64,000 bases of DNA from Ktedonobacteraceae bacterium (GTDB lineage Bacteria > Chloroflexota > Ktedonobacteria > Ktedonobacterales > Ktedonobacteraceae): positions 124,001 to 188,000 of the forward strand of contig DASRBN010000012.1 of assembly GCA_035653615.1 (NCBI GenBank). The letters run 5' to 3'. The translations under genes and the position numbers were made by a program. The notes beneath the pieces are model-generated. The model did not search any database. It saw only the letters and a program-made list of their open reading frames with translations, and was not told the origin of the DNA. Below, in pieces: positions 52,614 through 61,034 of the stretch; position 1 is the stretch's first letter, and each line of letters begins with the position of its first letter.

Positions 52614-53486
52614 GATGACCAGAAAAACAGGCAACATCCTCCGCAGGAGGAGCCGAGGCTTCGGCAGGTTCGCTATATTGTCACCACCGCCCCGCAGACC
52701 GGCGATCCAGTTGATGGTTACTACGCCGCCTTCCGAGATGGCTATTTCTTTTGTACTGGGAAAGGGGCCAGTAGGGAAGAGGCTCTTGCCGACCTGCTCC
52801 CCAAACTCGAGGCGTATCTTTTGAGGGAATGGCAAGAGAGCAAACGCAAGCTCCTTCCCACCCCGCTCTCTTCCGAGGAAGAGGTGAACACCGTGGTCAT
52901 CTCCATCCCTGATCTTTTTGGAGAGAGATACGCCCTACCCGACGAGCAGCGGCACAAACGACTGCAAGAGCGGCCACGGGTCGCCATCTACATCCAGAAG
53001 GTACCCGATCGACTGCCAGAAAGTATCAAACGGCACTATGCCTCCCGACTGAGTGAATGCCGAACATATGCAACAGAGCAGGGGTGGCAGGTTGTTGCCA
53101 TCTACGATGAGGCCGAGCACCCAGAGAAGACACCCCTCCTCGAGGATATCCGGGCGGGACGAGTGGATCTCGTGCTGGTTCATTCGCTCCATGATCTCAG
53201 CCATGAGAAGCGCGAGGTACTCACACTCTACGCGGAGATGCGGGCTACAGGTGTCCATCTTCACGAGCACAGGGCAGGCGACTTCGAGTCCATCTTGCAA
53301 GAAGATGAGCGCTTCACCCATTTTCTCTACCAGCTTGAACCCGCATGGATTGATTACCTATACAGCAGCAGGGCACCTCGGCAAGGAGAATCACTCCCTC
53401 TCAGCCACACCACCACAAGAACAGGAGCATCCCATGAGCTATATCGAGCAGAGAAATGCGCGCCTGGCTCTCTCCCGCGAACTTAA
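52614..53486 (+). CDS. Resolvase-fold protein without catalytic serine, with HicB-like N-terminus
   Basis: The frame is open from 52614 with no ATG until deep inside; a TTG at 52821 is the only common start and would cut off the first part. From 52671 it reads RYIVTTAPQTGDPVDGYYAA followed by FRDGYFFCTGKGASREEALADLL, a HicB-antitoxin-like or related small domain. After a linker, residues from about 52971 on (RPRVAIYIQKVPDRL, then QGWQVVAIYDEAEHPEKTPLLEDIRAGRVDLVLVHSLHDLS in several steps) follow the serine-recombinase N-terminal fold. The catalytic serine motif RVS is replaced by IQKVP. The 5' end may be damaged or use a rare start. Confidence 0.5.
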   Translation, partial: DDQKNRQHPPQEEPRLRQVRYIVTTAPQTGDPVDGYYAAFRDGYFFCTGKGASREEALADLLPKLEAYLLREWQESKRKLLPTPLSSEEEVNTVVISIPDLFGERYALPDEQRHKRLQERPRVAIYIQKVPDRLPESIKRHYASRLSECRTYATEQGWQVVAIYDEAEHPEKTPLLEDIRAGRVDLVLVHSLHDLSHEKREVLTLYAEMRATGVHLHEHRAGDFESILQEDERFTHFLYQLEPAWIDYLYSSRAPRQGESLPLSHTTTRTGASHELYRAEKCAPGSLPRT

Positions 53487-53928
53487 GCATGACATCGAGA
53501 CCGCCGTCTATCTTCATGCTACTACAGAAACCGAACTTGCCGAGCGGGAAGCCCGCTGTATGGCGCTGGCAAAGCAACAGGGATTGAAGGTCTTGACCAT
53601 CTGCCAGGATCTGATCACCTCTGAGGAAAAGGACTACCGTCGCGCGCTCGCACGCCTCTATCTTCCCCCGATCCCGTTTGACATCATCGTCGTAGACGAT
53701 CTCACCCAATTTGCCGAGACGCAAGAGCAGGTGGATGAGATTATTGAACGATTCTACGAGCAGCATTGCTATGTCCTTCCTGTCGGAGCGTCCTCCCATC
53801 TCAAACCACTCCAGTTTGGTCAAGATGGCATCCTCTGCCGAGGCTACTCTCACCGGTCGCGTTCCTGCCTCCAGGATGTGCGATTGAGCCCGATTCGCTT
53901 CTTCTCGCGTAAAGGCGCGCCGTTTTGA
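53434..53928 (+). CDS. Second resolvase-fold protein, C-terminus fused to antisense sequence
   Basis: 164 residues from the ATG at 53434 with AGGAG upstream, overlapping the previous gene by 53 bases. IETAVYLHATTETELAEREA and FDIIVVDDLTQFAETQEQVD again follow the serine-recombinase N-terminal fold, and again the catalytic serine is missing. After CYVLPV (about 53784) the frame runs antisense through the end of a nucleotidyltransferase gene on the other strand. The last 45 or so residues are therefore probably not original, which marks a recombination junction. Function unknown. Confidence 0.5.
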   Translation: MSYIEQRNARLALSRELKHDIETAVYLHATTETELAEREARCMALAKQQGLKVLTICQDLITSEEKDYRRALARLYLPPIPFDIIVVDDLTQFAETQEQVDEIIERFYEQHCYVLPVGASSHLKPLQFGQDGILCRGYSHRSRSCLQDVRLSPIRFFSRKGAPF

Positions 53929-54226
53929 GGGGCATAAGATCTATCTTGAGCATTGTGCTCAGATGGATTACACTGTAGGGCAAGTCCCAGCGAACTGCGT
54001 CTTGCCAGGCCTGCTCATCGACATAATAGTCGCGCTGGAGGCGTTGCACCAGCAAACGCACCTGGCTTGATCCAATAGCAACAATCACGTCCACATCCTG
54101 GGTGCGTCGCACCAGACCATGCAGAGAACTGGAAACTGAGCCGCCGATGTAGTAGGTGATACCAAGCCGCTCGAACGCTTCGATGAGCGGAGTTAGCGCT
54201 TCCATGACCTCGTGATACAGCGACAT
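53779..54226 (-). pseudogene. Nucleotidyltransferase, frameshifted and 3'-truncated
   Basis: From the ATG at 54226 the frame reads MSLYHEVMEALTPLIEAFER, then YYIGGSVSSSLHGLVRRTQDVDVIV and KIDLMP, the nucleotidyltransferase-like core also present in the intact protein at 54345. Near 53925 the natural continuation (KRRAFTREEANRAQ, then RVASAEDAILTKLEWFEMGG) is in another frame, so one base was lost or gained next to the CCCC run. The gene then stops matching at GGRSDR, 53779, where the intact paralogue continues with its ILGMLKVQG segment. It is broken twice. Confidence 0.75.
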
Positions 54227-54344
54227 CAGCGACCTCTTCCTTCGTGTCTTCTTTTGCTTGCTGATATTACGCTTAGACGGTAGAGGATCGACAGATTGAA
54301 GCAGTTTCCCACGCGCGCACGCAGGGTTCGCAGGTGCGTGATAC

Positions 54345-55211
54345 TCAGGCTTCTTCCAGCCCGGCATCGGCCAGCGCCTGGTGCCAGGTCTCTCTCACGT
54401 CGAGCTTGTCGGCCCATTCTGCCAGGAGCGCCAGATCGAGATCTGGACCTTGCACTTTCAGCATGCCCAGGATGTCGTTCCACTCAGCATCATCCTGCAT
54501 GCCATCGGTACGCGAACGCGCGTCTCGCCGATAGTGCTGGACTTTGAACAGGATCATTTCGGTTGCCGAGGCAAGATGGATGGGAGGATAGCGTTCGTCA
54601 AGGGTAGAGCATGCGATGAGTTGGCGCATGAGGGTATCGAATGCCTCGTGTTTCGAGAGAACGACATCGACCTTCATCAGCGAGTCCAGGTGGATTAAAG
54701 GAAACAAGCCACATGTTCGCGCAGCCTCTCGAGCCTCACTTTCATTGAAGAGGTAGTGGTGCCTGAGTACGGAGAACAACAAAGGAAGCACCTGTTCGTC
54801 CAGGTCGACAACCAGATCGATATCCTGCGCCAACTGCTGCATGCCATATAACGAGCTGGCAATCGAGCCTCCCAGGTAGTATGGCAGATGCAGATCTTCG
54901 AGGGCATGCCGAGCAGGGAGCATGACTGCGAGCAGATCAACCGGCTGCAGGTGCCAGTCCTCGCGCCTCTCAAGGGCCACCTGCACCAGCTTCGCCAGGC
55001 CGGGTCCATAGGAGCAGGAGAGAACATGTACGGCGGCTTGTTGTTCGCTGGCCCCGCGGTGGCGCTCCTGCCAGGTATGGATAGTTGCCCAGATTCCACT
55101 TTGGGTCAAGGATTGCACGAGCCTGAACCGTTTGCCCATGGGGGAGTTGCGGATCAACTCAATCATGATCCGCTCGGCCTCGGGATGGGTATCGACAGAC
55201 TGCGTTCTCAT
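54345..55211 (-). CDS. Nucleotidyltransferase-like protein (AbiEii/DUF6036-type)
   Basis: 288 residues with GAGGAG before the ATG at 55211. Residues 1 to about 100 are an extra helical domain. Then YYLGGSIASSLYGMQQLAQD with IDLVVDLDE gives the G-S and D-x-D nucleotidyltransferase motif, LIHLDSLMKVDVVL and ASATEMILFKVQHYR follow, and the C-terminus carries ILGMLKVQGPDLDLALLAEW. The fold is used by type IV toxins and by uncharacterised proteins. The partial paralogue next to it (53779-54226) suggests local duplication. No obvious antitoxin partner is adjacent. Confidence 0.7.
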   Translation of the reverse strand: MRTQSVDTHPEAERIMIELIRNSPMGKRFRLVQSLTQSGIWATIHTWQERHRGASEQQAAVHVLSCSYGPGLAKLVQVALERREDWHLQPVDLLAVMLPARHALEDLHLPYYLGGSIASSLYGMQQLAQDIDLVVDLDEQVLPLLFSVLRHHYLFNESEAREAARTCGLFPLIHLDSLMKVDVVLSKHEAFDTLMRQLIACSTLDERYPPIHLASATEMILFKVQHYRRDARSRTDGMQDDAEWNDILGMLKVQGPDLDLALLAEWADKLDVRETWHQALADAGLEEA

Positions 55212-55466: not shown

Positions 55467-56600
55467 TCACAATGCGTTAAAACCGAGATCTCGCCACAGC
55501 ATTTCGAGTTGCGATCGTTCCCAATCAGCGTATGTTTGCGGGTCGTTTAAGAAGCGCTCCCATGCTTCATTTAGTAAGGAAGGGATATTCCCACCGGTAG
55601 AGTTAGAGGCATTAAAGCTCCGCAGGCTCAGCATCCGACACACTTCGATAGTACGCTGTGCCAAAGCTTCAATCAAGGTCTGTGGATAGCACACCTCATA
55701 GTCGGGAGGCAGCGTCTCTCCACAAGCGGCGAGGTAGTTGTCCCAGAGTGTTTGGATACGATCGACTGCCTCTAACGCCCCGATTTGCTCCAGCACAGCA
55801 ATGATACCCCGGAATCGAGCCTCATCCGCTGGATGTTCCGCTATGTCACTCAGGCCCGGGTAATAGACCGTCCGACTATTGCCAGTACAGAGCCGCAGGT
55901 GTTGCCATCCGAAGGCTGGACCGACAAGGTACGTAGCGATCATATCCGCAACGAACTCCAAGACCCAGGCGTCTTTCCACTGCATCAGGAGCACCTCGTA
56001 CAGCGGCCGGTACTGGAGCGGACGCTGCCCCGTATCTACGCGCCGCTGTTCCTCCAGAATGTAGTGTTCGAGTATGTGAAGAAAATCTTCGAGGAACAAG
56101 GCTTTGTATGCTAATAGCAAGATATGGCCCAGTTCGTGACAGAGGTCCGGCTGGCTCAACAACAGTATCCCTTCGATACCCGGTGTACAGACGAGATTGA
56201 ATTCCGCCACCGTCCAGTAATACTGGTGGGAAAAGGTCGCTACCAATGGGGCCGACAGAGGCCATCCGATCTGCTCCGTCAACCGCTGGCAAAACCTGGT
56301 AATCCGCCGGTCCGGCTCTGCATAGCGCTCGACGAAGAGAAACGGGAACGATTCGATCACCCTGACACGCTCATTCAAGCGCTTGTACAACTGGAGGTGA
56401 TTCGACAGCAGCAGAGGGCTGCTCAGGCTGGGATCAGCCAGCAGCTGTGCCACCCTGCGTCGTATGCGTTCTGCCTCCTGGTAGGTGCTCATGGCATACG
56501 AGCGAACTTCCTGGTCTACGGGGATTGTTGCCAGACGATCTCGCAAGGTAGAGCAGCGCCGCTCTAAATCCTGCAGGAGTCCATGTAAAAACCGTTCCAC
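55467..56600 (-). CDS. HELGH zinc-metallopeptidase-like protein of the Argonaute operon
   Basis: 377 residues. The zinc motif H155-E156-L-G-H159 is followed 56 residues later by E215 in WVLEFVADM, which fits a gluzincin-type third ligand. D219, the VGPAFGW segment and HPADEAR (from 256) look like conserved shell residues. The first 110 residues are helical and charged. It is soluble, with no signal peptide. Cytoplasmic HExxH proteins beside XRE repressors (ImmA/IrrE type) cleave the repressor when a system must be switched on; that role here is inferred. Last gene of the five-gene unit, 21 bases after the small helical gene. Confidence 0.72.
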   Translation of the reverse strand: MERFLHGLLQDLERRCSTLRDRLATIPVDQEVRSYAMSTYQEAERIRRRVAQLLADPSLSSPLLLSNHLQLYKRLNERVRVIESFPFLFVERYAEPDRRITRFCQRLTEQIGWPLSAPLVATFSHQYYWTVAEFNLVCTPGIEGILLLSQPDLCHELGHILLLAYKALFLEDFLHILEHYILEEQRRVDTGQRPLQYRPLYEVLLMQWKDAWVLEFVADMIATYLVGPAFGWQHLRLCTGNSRTVYYPGLSDIAEHPADEARFRGIIAVLEQIGALEAVDRIQTLWDNYLAACGETLPPDYEVCYPQTLIEALAQRTIEVCRMLSLRSFNASNSTGGNIPSLLNEAWERFLNDPQTYADWERSQLEMLWRDLGFNAL

Positions 56601-56621
56601 GCTACGCGCTCCTCCAATTCC

Positions 56622-57062
56622 TTACAGACGCATCAGCCGACGGAAGACACTTGATGCTTCTGCATCCGCCAGCATCGCGAGATGATCGAGAAGAGCAAGG
56701 TCCTCGTTGCTCAGTTGCAACGGTTCAGAATGTAACTGGGCAGCTACACGCGAGAGGTCATCCAGATAGTAGGCAAGGTCTCCACGCCGCTCGGTTCGTA
56801 GCCGGACAATCAGGGCTCCCGGTATCTGGACCGTCGTTATATCCTTTACATGGCGCGCTCTGGAAGCACTCAGCAAGTTGACAAGAGTAGTCAATATCTC
56901 TGCTAGAGTACGCACGCTGTCGTTCAGTTGTTCAGCATCGATCGTTTCTCCCCAAGGTAGGTTATACCGGACTTTCTTGAGTATGATGAGTGCATTGCTA
57001 ATACGCTGCGAGAGGTCAGAAGCGGTTTTATATTCATGCGAAAGGACGCTCATATCGCTCAT
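56622..57062 (-). CDS. Small helical protein of the Argonaute operon
   Basis: 146 residues, or 143 from a second ATG. Predominantly helical by eye: ASDLSQRISNALIILKKVRY and DSVRTLAEILTTLVNLLSA are amphipathic helices, and the C-terminal LSNEDLALLDHLAMLADAEA is another. No cysteines, no signal, no catalytic motif. It lies between the Argonaute gene (21 bases) and the metallopeptidase gene (21 bases). It could be an adaptor or an inhibitor; I recognise no family. Confidence 0.65.
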   Translation of the reverse strand: MSDMSVLSHEYKTASDLSQRISNALIILKKVRYNLPWGETIDAEQLNDSVRTLAEILTTLVNLLSASRARHVKDITTVQIPGALIVRLRTERRGDLAYYLDDLSRVAAQLHSEPLQLSNEDLALLDHLAMLADAEASSVFRRLMRL

Positions 57063-57083
57063 AGCCTTTCGCCTCCCTCCTTC

Positions 57084-59528
57084 TCATGTGTTGTTCATGG
57101 GACGACTGACGGCCACCCCTAAAGTGTCAGACATGAACGCATCTTCTTCTAGAGAATCAAGTGCCTCGGCAAGCTCTGTTTCGTATAAGACCCCCTCGTC
57201 CTCTACCTGACTGGCAATGGGCTCCAGGAAGTCATCGGCCAGCTTCACGGTCAGGGGGAGTCGGGCGCACTTATCGGGCGCTGTAAAGGCTAGCTGCGAT
57301 AAGGCGAAGATATCCTCCAGCACCCAGGCAACATTGAGATCCCCCTCGGCAATAAACGCAGCCAGGGGTTTGGCAGTACCCGGAAAGCGGAACGGCCACC
57401 CTGTCGTGCAGACGACTCCCTCCGTGCGACCAAGGATATAGTAGCTCCCGACGGGACAGTTCTGCGCTCTTTGCAGGGACTCTCCCTCCACAAGGCGCAG
57501 CCGGTCGGCAGTCGTTTTGCGAATATCCACCGCCCCTACAAGGACTTCACGCGGAAGGACACCTTTGCTCTTCAGTTCCTGCACCGCTCTGTGCAGACCT
57601 TGTAATTCAGAGGGAAAGGTGCGCCCATCACGATGAATGACGATGCTTCGTGGCCGGAGTTGCAAGTCTGCAAGGTCCTCGGAGAGGTGCTTGAGCAAAG
57701 TCTCCCGCATCAGGGGCATCGTCAACCGCTCCTTCTGTTTGCATGGACAGTTGCGAAAATAGATGTGCCGACCGTGATTATAGACAAAGGTGAAACCGGC
57801 CATGCCGTTCAGGACATCGATGCCGATGTACACCTCGTAATGAAGGGGAGCAGCCAGAGACCAGATCCACTTGCGATTCACTACCATCATCCCAAAAGCG
57901 CAGTTCTGCACATAACTCGCAAGTTTGTGCGCTCGGTCCCGTCCCGGACTGTAGATGGACATACGCGCATCCCACTCATAGTAGCTGCGAATTTTGTTGG
58001 CCATCGCGCATTGGAACTGCAGATCTGGCCAGAGCTCCCGTTTCATATAATTATGCAGGTCTCGTTTGGCGCGCTCAGGAAGGACTAATAATGCATAGCC
58101 GTGATCAATGCGGCTGCTGGAAATCGCGCTCTTGATGGCCTGGACTTGGGCGTACAGCGAATTCGCCTTGCCGTCATCGTAGAGAACGCGCTGTACCGCA
58201 TAGCCTGGCTTGTGAGCGATCGCCTGCATCGCGCTTTGAAACCGCTTCATAAAGTCGTCGTTGATAGAGCGATGCAGGCTCTGCGGAAGAAAAAGATACT
58301 GCACATCGAACGGGGTGGTATCCAGCGGCCCCGCCTGTGGATCGAGGACGAGTTGCAGCCGCCGCTGGCCAAGCTGGGGTAGAGGTACCACGTCGGTAGC
58401 TTGAGCCGTGACCCCTCTCTCTACAGCCAGTACGCGGTCTTTGCCGAATCGCTGCGCGGGGACTGGAAAGAAGCGGCGTTCGATTTCCAACGGCTGCTCC
58501 GTTATCTGAATCCTGTGGGAGCCGAGCCCCGCGTGTTGAAAATGGCGCGCGACGATTTCGGCGATGCGCCCGAAACGCGCCGCTGGCTCCAGGATGGAAA
58601 GGCGGTGCAGATAGGCCGTTTCCTCGTCGGCCGTTGAGAGGAGCAGCTTGCAGAGGGCTAAAGCACCGTAGCGCTCCTTTTCGTTCCCTGGGTAGTGATA
58701 AATGATCGCCGGGCTATCGGGGCCAAGATCACGTACCCACGCCGGAGGGTTCATTCGCCATTGCTCTTTGGTGTACGCGAAAACGTTGTGGGCCTGTGTC
58801 TCGCCTTCAGCGAAAAACTGTTGCTCAGCAATGGTTCTGCCTGTGAGACCCCAGAGTTGGACAGGATACCACTGGTGACCGAAGTGATAGAGGCAGTGCC
58901 TACGGAGATATCTGTTCGGATCGTTCTCATCCCATCGCTCTGGCAGCCAGTAGCGGTCCACATAGCGGGAGGTCGTGTCCACCGCCAGGAAGAGGCGGCC
59001 ATTCTCCATCACGATCACGTTCCAGGTGAAACCGGGATAGATGTCAACACGATCCCTCGAGTTGTCTCGATTCAGCGCCTGCTTGTAATAGTAGGCACGG
59101 CCACTGCCCCAGAGATCCTGGGAACGCTGCAATGGAGAACTCAACGCGAAGTGGAGAAACGCGATAGCAATCTGCGCCGTATCCGCATCGAGGCGGGCAA
59201 AATCGAGGATATGGCTTTCCTTGCGCGGGGCCAGAGTGACGACATGGGGCATGAGCTGCCGCTGTAACTGCGGAAGCGTGGCATCGGCCGGGATGGCCAG
59301 GAAATGAGCAGACCCGTCCCGCACTAAAGCGACTGGCTGCCGCAGTTCATAACGAACCGCCTTGAGGAGCTGGTTGATGTTCTTCTCATAGTGGTCACCG
59401 GGCGGCAGGTTCTGTACCTCGAGCAGCCGGTAAGCAACTTCCAACTCGCGTCGGTTGGTCACCTCAAAGAGGTTTGCCCAGCGATGTCTCCCGCGTCCTG
59501 TGCCGCGATACTGTGTATTCGTCACCAT
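57084..59528 (-). CDS. Long prokaryotic Argonaute (PIWI protein)
   Basis: 814 residues. About 1-190 form N and L1 (YPGFTWNVIVMENGRLFLAV near 164), a PAZ/L2-like region follows, MID is about 400-560 and PIWI about 565-780. Candidate MID 5'-end-binding residues are Y494, K496, Q506 and K512. PIWI catalytic residues look complete: D571 in YIGIDVL, D634 in IHRDGR and D765 or D766 in VKLADD, with E609 (or E600) as the glutamate finger. LPLTVKLAD and the GTAKPLA loop are typical. Argonautes use a small guide nucleic acid to cut target DNA or RNA, mostly against plasmids and phages. It overlaps the nuclease gene upstream by 7 bases, so the two are coupled. Confidence 0.87.
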   Translation of the reverse strand: MVTNTQYRGTGRGRHRWANLFEVTNRRELEVAYRLLEVQNLPPGDHYEKNINQLLKAVRYELRQPVALVRDGSAHFLAIPADATLPQLQRQLMPHVVTLAPRKESHILDFARLDADTAQIAIAFLHFALSSPLQRSQDLWGSGRAYYYKQALNRDNSRDRVDIYPGFTWNVIVMENGRLFLAVDTTSRYVDRYWLPERWDENDPNRYLRRHCLYHFGHQWYPVQLWGLTGRTIAEQQFFAEGETQAHNVFAYTKEQWRMNPPAWVRDLGPDSPAIIYHYPGNEKERYGALALCKLLLSTADEETAYLHRLSILEPAARFGRIAEIVARHFQHAGLGSHRIQITEQPLEIERRFFPVPAQRFGKDRVLAVERGVTAQATDVVPLPQLGQRRLQLVLDPQAGPLDTTPFDVQYLFLPQSLHRSINDDFMKRFQSAMQAIAHKPGYAVQRVLYDDGKANSLYAQVQAIKSAISSSRIDHGYALLVLPERAKRDLHNYMKRELWPDLQFQCAMANKIRSYYEWDARMSIYSPGRDRAHKLASYVQNCAFGMMVVNRKWIWSLAAPLHYEVYIGIDVLNGMAGFTFVYNHGRHIYFRNCPCKQKERLTMPLMRETLLKHLSEDLADLQLRPRSIVIHRDGRTFPSELQGLHRAVQELKSKGVLPREVLVGAVDIRKTTADRLRLVEGESLQRAQNCPVGSYYILGRTEGVVCTTGWPFRFPGTAKPLAAFIAEGDLNVAWVLEDIFALSQLAFTAPDKCARLPLTVKLADDFLEPIASQVEDEGVLYETELAEALDSLEEDAFMSDTLGVAVSRPMNNT

Positions 59529-60484
59529 AGCCTCTCCTGGATCACCTCTGCTTCACTGGGACACCCCGTGTCCGCGAGTTGCTGCACGCACAGGGAACCG
59601 AAGTTACAGTGAAAGCAGGTGCCTGGCCGCTCGGCTACCTCGAACTCGCTCAAGTCCAGGTCCTCGAATCTGCCAGTGCCAATGAGTGTTTCCCGTTCTA
59701 CCAAGCTTCTGTAAATGAAGTCTTCCGCCTCTTCGAGATGCTGGCTGCTCACCGGATGCACGCGTATCTGGTTCTTGAGCAGATTCGCCTCGAGGAGTTG
59801 AACTGATTCCGCCCTTACCCAGGGCCAGCGGCCGCAGCGCGCCACGGCCAGGGCATACACGAGGAGTTGGCGCGAATAATCGCTCGTTTCGCTTTCGGCG
59901 ATCTTCCAGTCCACCACGGTGAGCCGACGATTCCTCTCGACATATACCAGATCCGGCGTTGCCGTCACGCTCTCCCCATTCAAGGCAAAACCGAGCGTCT
60001 GCTCCGCGACATGACCAGAGCCTGCATAGAGACGAGCGAGAAATTCGCGCTGTCCTGCGAGGTGCTCAAAACATCGGGTTATAGTGGTAGAAACCTGCTC
60101 CATGCTGGTCGGTGAAATTGCTAGCCCATATTCATGCTCGAAGAGCGCACAGTACTCGTTCGCAGCTGCTTGCTTTGTCTGGCCAGGCTCGCGGTATCGC
60201 TTCGCAGCTGAGAAAGCAAGCTGCCTTCGGGCAAGGGCCTGAGCCGCAACCGCGAGAGCTGTTGGATCGAAGGGGCGCTTCGCACGCAGATCGGCAAGAA
60301 AGTTGGTAGCCAGTATCCGATGCACAAGACTGCCCTGCCATGCCGAGAGGTGTTGAAGCTGCTTAAGGACGTAGGCTTCAGACCGGAGCGGATCATGGGC
60401 CTTATGGGAGGCGATGACGTACCCAAAGGCGTAGGCCCGCTGGCATCGCCGCATCACGGTGTGCCCTGAGTATGACCATCTCAT
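59522..60484 (-). CDS. Cas4/RecB-like PD-(D/E)XK nuclease with Fe-S cysteines
   Basis: 320 residues. Nuclease motifs: H55 in GSLVH, D178 in TPDLVY, D192-x-K194 in VVDWKI, then Q206 and Y210 (QLLVY, the QxxxY helix of RecB/Cas4 nucleases). Four cysteines, C14 near the N-terminus and C290, C293, C299 near the C-terminus, are placed as in Cas4 and AddB, where they hold a 4Fe-4S cluster. It would trim or degrade DNA ends, for example to make guides for, or finish cuts by, the Argonaute whose gene overlaps its end. Similar nucleases have been noted beside prokaryotic Argonautes. The ribosome site is weak (AAGGA, 15 bases before ATG). Confidence 0.86.
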   Translation of the reverse strand: MRWSYSGHTVMRRCQRAYAFGYVIASHKAHDPLRSEAYVLKQLQHLSAWQGSLVHRILATNFLADLRAKRPFDPTALAVAAQALARRQLAFSAAKRYREPGQTKQAAANEYCALFEHEYGLAISPTSMEQVSTTITRCFEHLAGQREFLARLYAGSGHVAEQTLGFALNGESVTATPDLVYVERNRRLTVVDWKIAESETSDYSRQLLVYALAVARCGRWPWVRAESVQLLEANLLKNQIRVHPVSSQHLEEAEDFIYRSLVERETLIGTGRFEDLDLSEFEVAERPGTCFHCNFGSLCVQQLADTGCPSEAEVIQERLW

Positions 60485-60562
60485 AGGTTAACTTTCCTTG
60501 CCTCTTCTGCCATAAGTCATTCTCCCTCTTGTTCGGTCCAACATCTTTTACCGGTCATCAGG

Positions 60563-60910
60563 TTACTCTTCATCTTCGGCCTGCCTATCGAGATAGGCCA
60601 AGAGATCACGCCAGCCTTCGGGGCTCTTAATCGTTTCGGTAGCGCGTCGGAAGAAGCGCATCGCATCCTTGTCCCGCGCGATAGCCTCCAACACCGGCGG
60701 CACCTTGTTGGCAAGCTCCATCAACTCCAGTTCATCGACCTCTAGAATCCGCGCCAGGTCCTGAAGAGTCTTGATGGAGGGTGTATGCTCAAGACGATTA
60801 TTCTCGATCTTGGAGAGATAGCTGAAATCGACGCCAGCCTGCTCAGCGAGTTGACGTTGTGTGAGGTGGTGCTGGCGTCGCAACTCCTTAATATATTCTC
60901 CCAGTGTCAT
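60563..60910 (-). CDS. XRE-family repressor of the Argonaute operon
   Basis: 115 residues from the ATG at 60910 (AGGGG upstream). The frame is open further back only through the promoter. A helix-turn-helix of the XRE type covers about 4-62: LTQRQLAEQAGVDFSYLSKI followed by ENNRLEHTPSIKTLQDLA. The C-terminal half is helical and acidic. The 19-bp palindrome over its own -35 box makes autorepression likely. Because the nuclease gene starts 78 bases downstream with no separate promoter seen, it probably controls the whole operon. Confidence 0.9.
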   Translation of the reverse strand: MTLGEYIKELRRQHHLTQRQLAEQAGVDFSYLSKIENNRLEHTPSIKTLQDLARILEVDELELMELANKVPPVLEAIARDKDAMRFFRRATETIKSPEGWRDLLAYLDRQAEDEE

Positions 60911-60935
60911 AGCGCACCCCTTTCTCCTATCCACA

Positions 60936-60981
60936 AGTATACCAAAATGTTGACTTGAAGTCAACATCAACTTCGTTGATT
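60936..60981 (-). promoter_or_regulatory. Promoter and palindromic operator of the Argonaute operon
   Basis: Minus strand: -35 TTGACT (60959-60964), 17-base spacer, -10 TATACT (60936-60941), 26 bases before the XRE start. TGTTGACTTGAAGTCAACA at 60948-60966 is a perfect palindrome about one centre base and covers the -35 and part of the spacer. Just upstream ATCAAC-TTC-GTTGAT (60966-60980) is a second, shorter palindrome with a similar half-site. A bound XRE dimer would block RNA polymerase. Confidence 0.82.
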
Positions 60982-61034
60982 CTGCGGATAAGCTTTTTTC
61001 ACCGAAAGACATGCTCAGTCAATCTTCTCAGAAC

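Follow-up and report, generated by a model that had tools for sequence, protein, structure and literature searches.

The closest described systems to the locus analysed here are the operons of D-R (DNA-guide, RNA-target) prokaryotic Argonautes (pAgos), a class published in 2022, of which PliAgo, RslAgo, PnyAgo and HpeAgo use DNA guides to cut RNA (PMC9360449). In the main text of that work the D-R pAgos are split into two groups, one around PliAgo with an RHSY pocket in the MID domain and a helix-turn-helix (HTH) regulator, the other around PnyAgo with an HKQK pocket and a sigma70 factor; a PD-(D/E)XK nuclease is encoded together with either regulator, and gene composition is uniform within each group (PMC9360449). 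We found no phage or plasmid challenge experiments on members of this class in the literature surveyed. Two further kinds of system bear on the comparison. Craspase has a protease that is switched on by recognition of RNA and then cuts a sigma-factor inhibitor (PMC10028731). A zinc peptidase and an XRE repressor are joined in one regulatory unit in PprI-DdrO, where PprI bound to single-stranded DNA (ssDNA) cleaves DdrO (PMC10904395), and in CapP-CapH, where CapH is degraded by CapP (PMC12255303).

The window, which is the whole 64-kb stretch of DNA analysed, contains by open reading frame (ORF) reading a minus-strand run of five genes at 55467-60910, encoding an XRE-family repressor, a nuclease, a long pAgo, a small helical protein and a protein with an HELGH (HExxH) motif (Table 1). 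A preliminary description of this DNA had reported five closely spaced genes on one strand, and this layout was confirmed, with an overlap of exactly 7 bases between nuclease and pAgo genes and gaps of 78, 21 and 21 bases elsewhere. As that class is characterized in the main text of the 2022 report, this is a D-R pAgo operon (PMC9360449). The earlier suggestion that the composition is not that of a described system holds only in part, as a nuclease and an HTH or sigma regulator were reported with D-R pAgos in 2022, whereas the two downstream genes are not named in the main text of that report and may be drawn in its figures or supplements (PMC9360449). The operon class itself is known, and the new element is the helical and zinc-peptidase-like proteins that constantly accompany the D-R pAgo. 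No description of the peptidase was found in the open-licence papers searched.

Table 1. Features of the pAgo operon, in coordinates of the window.
Feature	Position	Strand	Basis
Promoter TTGACT-17-TATACT with 21-bp palindrome ATGTTGACTTcAAGTCAACAT (60947-60967) over the -35 box	60936..60967	-	Sequence scan
XRE-family repressor, 115 aa	60563..60910	-	Pfam HTH_3, E 2.3e-16
Cas4-like PD-(D/E)XK nuclease; D178, D192/K194, Q206, Fe-S-type C14/C290/C293/C299	59522..60484	-	Pfam PDDEXK_1, E 5.9e-13; PADLOC Aga_Cas4-like_Nuc, E 4.6e-66; conservation
Long pAgo, 814 aa; DEDD D571/E600/D634/D765; PnyAgo-type MID H492/K496/Q506	57084..59528	-	PADLOC pAgo_II, E 6.4e-158; alignments
Small helical protein, 146 aa; candidate peptidase partner or inhibitor	56622..57062	-	AlphaFold five-helix bundle, pLDDT 91.9; relatives directly upstream of the HExxH gene
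HExxH...E zinc-peptidase-like protein, 377 aa; helical bundle 1-93 and gluzincin-like domain	55467..56600	-	H155/E156/H159/E215 invariant, D219 nearly so; AlphaFold model

The Piwi model of Pfam matches the pAgo only weakly (E 0.012). Its closest solved chains are 9wmd/8xih (E ~1e-97), which carry the depositor name 'Piwi domain-containing protein', and the solved PliAgo chains 7r8f-7r8k match with E ~1e-75 (PMC9360449). Alignment places the PliAgo tetrad D563/E592/D626/D762 on D571/E600/D634/D765 of the window protein, so that its D/E/D/D residues match the tetrad of a solved Argonaute, and all four are invariant in 37 relatives. On the same alignment D571 and D634 of the preliminary description stand and D765 is preferred over D766, whereas its candidate glutamate, E609, is ruled out because PliAgo E592 aligns with E600. 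One relative is the pAgo operon on plasmid pRUNSL03 of Runella slithyformis (L005), the source organism of RslAgo. Judged from orthology to the published homologues, the window pAgo probably slices RNA with DNA guides.

Within LHNYMKRELWPDLQFQC, the MID residues H492/K496/Q506 are column-matched to sigma-type relatives at the H, K and Q of the HKQK-type pocket, and the window pAgo reads HxxxK...Q in the columns that hold the RHSY pocket of the PliAgo group. The nuclease gene lies directly upstream of the pAgo gene, as in the D-R class, and its Cas4-like PD-(D/E)XK assignment, with QxxxY (Q206) and four Fe-S-type cysteines as proposed earlier, was borne out: PADLOC matches the protein, the QxxxY motif is present, and the four cysteines are invariant across 34 relatives. 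The window thus shares the DEDD tetrad, the HxxxK...Q pocket and the adjoining nuclease with the PnyAgo/HpeAgo group; unlike that group as presented in the main text, it has an XRE gene in place of a sigma70 factor (PMC9360449). The class II Argonaute system of PADLOC, with Aga_Cas4-like_Nuc, matches both proteins with high scores, whereas no PADLOC model matches the helical or the HExxH protein.

The upstream regulator varies among the relatives. Most PnyAgo-type relatives have an ECF-type sigma factor and a second protein, and a few loci have neither regulator, with no XRE or sigma gene seen upstream in a cyanobacterial locus (L002) and an Anaerolineae locus (L015). In the protein adjoining the sigma factor, hhalign picks out an XRE-like HTH stretch (E 1.2e-4, probability 55%), a resemblance that is no more than suggestive. 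In the pAgo tree the window protein is placed with cyanobacterial relatives beside the sigma clade (support 96/95), the pairing with the cyanobacteria being weak (83/45); both the sigma clade (100/100) and the 24-row PliAgo-type clade exclude it. The window is unusual in combining a PnyAgo-type MID domain with an XRE gene, so that MID type and regulator do not always go together as published, and the rule that a PnyAgo-type pAgo comes with a sigma factor is broken by this locus.

The operon has a sole strong promoter (minus strand, 60964-60936), whose -35 box is covered by a perfect palindrome with 10-bp arms, the best short palindrome of the window. The whole region is not enriched in promoters relative to shuffles, and the argument therefore depends on the palindrome; its 21 bp occur once in the 6.59-Mb genome when up to 3 mismatches are allowed. 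Its position over the -35 box supports autoregulation by the XRE protein, in agreement with the single autoregulatory promoter anticipated earlier. The promoter falls between two possible XRE starts, which sets the start at 60910; the alternative at 61012, upstream of the promoter, was rejected. With an XRE gene and a predicted operator palindrome at the promoter, a dedicated, autoregulated repressor, also part of the preliminary description, is likely.

In 21/21 other XRE-type loci tested, the region before the XRE gene contains conserved putative operator dyads of 16 bp, GCTTG-N6-TAGC or a near variant, at 17-80 bp upstream of the XRE start in L005, L025, L022, L039, L026, L017, L003 and others from several phyla. 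They are often double, with copies 32 bp apart in Bacteroidota and 19-20 bp apart in Chloroflexota/Acidobacteriota. The pattern was derived from these same 21 loci; L073, which was left out of the derivation, has two copies 32 bp apart. The window operator is a palindrome unlike this dyad, and the window XRE is only 25-31% identical to the other XREs. The PliAgo/RslAgo group, as far as the main text of the 2022 report describes it, resembles the window in having an HTH regulator, a nuclease and a pAgo, and its surveyed loci all carry the same two downstream genes; it differs in its RHSY MID pocket and its GCTTG-N6-TAGC operators (PMC9360449).

The neighbours of the pAgo gene are conserved across the relatives surveyed, and the preliminary description, which named their non-conservation as its refutation, stands in this respect. 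When 72,556 plasmids were searched by tblastn with the pAgo and with the HELGH protein, both queries matched the same five plasmids, with the order nuclease, pAgo, small protein, HELGH protein in 5/5; the pAgo query also picked up a single partial match, of 29%, in Halobacterium. From 84,980 species genomes scanned, 34 relatives were recovered, one of which repeats a Rhizobium plasmid, and the short matches L041 and L042 were set aside. Profiles run against all loci detected the small and HELGH genes in 37/37 assessable cases; the nuclease gene was likewise there wherever the contig end did not truncate the locus. The four-gene core thus occurs in every assessable relative, in Bacteroidota, Cyanobacteriota, Chloroflexota, Acidobacteriota, Pseudomonadota and Dojkabacteria, and its genes nearly always follow the same order. 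The four proteins have correlated distance matrices (r 0.90-0.97), with 0/999 permutations as high; related loci inflate such correlations. A DNA-level search of plasmids gave no match, and neither the pAgo in viral contigs nor the HExxH protein in phage records was found. The constant company of helical protein and peptidase beside the pAgo suggests a coupling between guided recognition of RNA and the cutting of proteins.

Some observations concern the surroundings of these loci. Multiubiquitin and ThiF genes adjoin three Bacteroidota loci (L004:3065-5478, L005:12244-14423 and L076:4791-6432, the last read by eye), with DUF6527 in L004 and L005, and this neighbourhood is possibly a shared defence island. 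In the window itself, two adjacent plus-strand ORFs at 52821-53928 give weak matches to the resolvase N-terminal domain (PF00239, E 4e-8 and 4e-4) and are possibly degraded recombinase remnants. Two adjacent minus-strand ORFs at 53801-55211 have similar GGSxxSSLxG...DxD stretches, like diverged nucleotidyltransferases, with no Pfam match.

The two downstream proteins belong to no family that could be recognized convincingly in Pfam, NCBIfam, PADLOC or PHROG. In 37 HExxH sequences, 22-32% identical to that of the window, H155, E156, H159, W208 and E215 are invariant, and D219 is nearly so, being Asn in two Anaerolineae members; HExxH followed by a downstream Glu gives the gluzincin-like pattern HExxH...ExxxD. 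The AlphaFold model (pLDDT 94.5) consists of an N-terminal helical bundle and a mixed domain. It gave no significant Foldseek match, and its M48-type structural matches (ZMPSTE24, Z 8.1 over 202 residues; Ste24p, 7.4; BepA, 7.3) have middling Z and large rmsd. Structural matches come mostly from the helical bundle, with bundles over residues 1-93 filling the VIA list. Pfam detected neither M48 nor ImmA/IrrE in any of the 37 members, and no ImmA/IrrE was found in Pfam or NCBIfam for the window protein. Peptidase activity of the HExxH protein is very likely, given the conservation of these residues. A reading of the protein as a structural scaffold, its site being vestigial and the operon acting purely by RNA slicing and guide-making, would be allowed by its largely helical build, and metallopeptidase pseudoenzymes exist. 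As the four active-site residues do not vary among the 37 relatives, which span several phyla, and can still be read in the pAgo-free pairs L052, L053, L056 and L076, we regard this reading as highly improbable.

The helical protein is modelled as a five-helix bundle with no significant Foldseek match (best E 0.056, a designed protein), and PDB profile searches returned only coiled-coil or designed proteins. Homology of the helical protein to a stretch of the HExxH protein was also considered; the comparison gave no support.

Searches from the HELGH side, run in five phyla, revealed further operons with all genes (L073-L075, L077 and L078) and divergent ones (L079 and L095, the small gene of L095 being assigned by position only). 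In L094 the order is XRE, small, HELGH, nuclease, pAgo. In L076 it is sigma factor, hypothetical protein, 136-aa protein, small, HELGH, with no nuclease-pAgo pair, and in L051-L053 the small-HELGH pair stands beside unrelated genes without a class pAgo. A pAgo of this class was not found in 14 genomes with such pairs, including L076 and L051-L053, in a search that had no built-in positive control. The small and HELGH genes are a separable cassette. That they can be parted from the nuclease and pAgo genes fits a recognition arm and a proteolytic arm. Pairs that stand beside other genes in genomes lacking a class pAgo could equally be read as a toxin-antitoxin-like or abortive-infection passenger, independent of guided recognition; a mere passenger should sometimes be lost, whereas the pair is always found with the class pAgo, in nearly fixed order and with strongly correlated trees, and we consider this explanation rather improbable.

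The contexts of the separate pairs and of more distant homologues are diverse. In L076:6577-9834 the sigma factor, an HTH-like protein and the small and HExxH genes accompany a 136-aa protein with a GIY...YVG-like motif, which replaces the nuclease-pAgo pair; its reading as a GIY-YIG nuclease was dropped, as the motif likeness was seen by eye only and Pfam gives no support. In L051, L052 and L053, which belong to the phylum of the window, the pair adjoins large uncharacterized proteins, with response-regulator-like and ATPase-like proteins on the opposite strand. Distant HExxH paralogues of roughly 420-550 aa occur in tandem in L057:1198-4057, L082 and L097, and one of those in L057 is without the second histidine (HEFAY). 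In L096:4525-14017 and L098:6178-12214, distant HExxH homologues lie in a quite different context, beside strings of acidic-repeat proteins.

We propose that the operon combines an RNA-slicing pAgo and a peptidase arm in two cassettes under one autoregulated repressor promoter, a model that we consider evenly poised between right and wrong. The first cassette, nuclease and pAgo, would be the recognition arm. Its Cas4-like nuclease probably has the task of making short DNA guides out of invader DNA, or of trimming them, and 5'-phosphorylated DNA guides, as in the published homologues, would let the pAgo find and slice RNA. The second cassette, helical protein and HExxH zinc peptidase, would be the proteolytic arm. 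Its helical partner probably keeps the peptidase inactive, and target engagement by the first cassette probably releases it to act on a presumed protein substrate. The XRE protein on the -35 palindrome would keep the operon low until it is induced, and a role of the locus in defence is inferred.

A serious, though less probable, competitor is that the HExxH protein is a regulatory protease. On sensing ssDNA or a comparable signal, it would cleave the XRE protein, or in sigma loci the HTH-like protein paired with the sigma factor, and so derepress the operon, comparable to PprI-DdrO and CapP-CapH. A metallopeptidase and an XRE repressor indeed share the window operon; the capH model of PADLOC matches the window XRE (E 2.7e-11), as generic HTH models do too, and the XRE-like HTH stretch in the second protein of sigma loci makes a common HTH substrate possible. 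Unlike the peptidases of those two systems, that of the window has no ImmA/IrrE match, nor does any of the 37 members by Pfam; it comes with a helical bundle and a partner, and we know of no counterpart of the conserved helical partner in CapP-CapH. The peptidase is moreover kept in L002 and L015, whose upstream regions show neither an XRE nor a sigma gene, and pairs occur away from any XRE (L052 and L053). Retention in such loci and in pAgo-free pairs favours a role beyond XRE cleavage. We prefer a peptidase acting downstream of the pAgo to one acting on the regulator, a preference of probability rather than one forced by the sequence.

A more specific and rather doubtful version is that the operon is an Argonaute counterpart of Craspase, in which DNA-guided recognition of invader RNA by the pAgo would switch on the HExxH peptidase through the helical adaptor, and the peptidase would cut a host protein or a regulator. 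For sigma-type relatives this would mean release of the ECF-type sigma factor from the HTH-like protein paired with it. The likeness to Craspase/CASP of type III-E CRISPR (PMC10028731) is one of analogy, not homology: an RNA-targeting guided nuclease is encoded with a protease, and some relatives have an ECF-type sigma factor with a candidate inhibitor. The two differ in that no shared family is known, Cas7-11 with crRNA stands against a DNA-guided Argonaute and a CHAT cysteine protease against an HExxH zinc site, and RNA-activated proteolysis is a prediction on the side of the window system.

D-R pAgos are studied as programmable RNA cutters, and the peptidase cassette provides a direct handle on their biological role, while the conserved operators offer a readout of when the operons switch on. 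The cassette would also show whether, outside CRISPR, proteolysis is tied to the guided recognition of RNA. If the counterpart of Craspase proposed here is true, guided, RNA-triggered proteolysis would have arisen independently in CRISPR and Argonaute systems.
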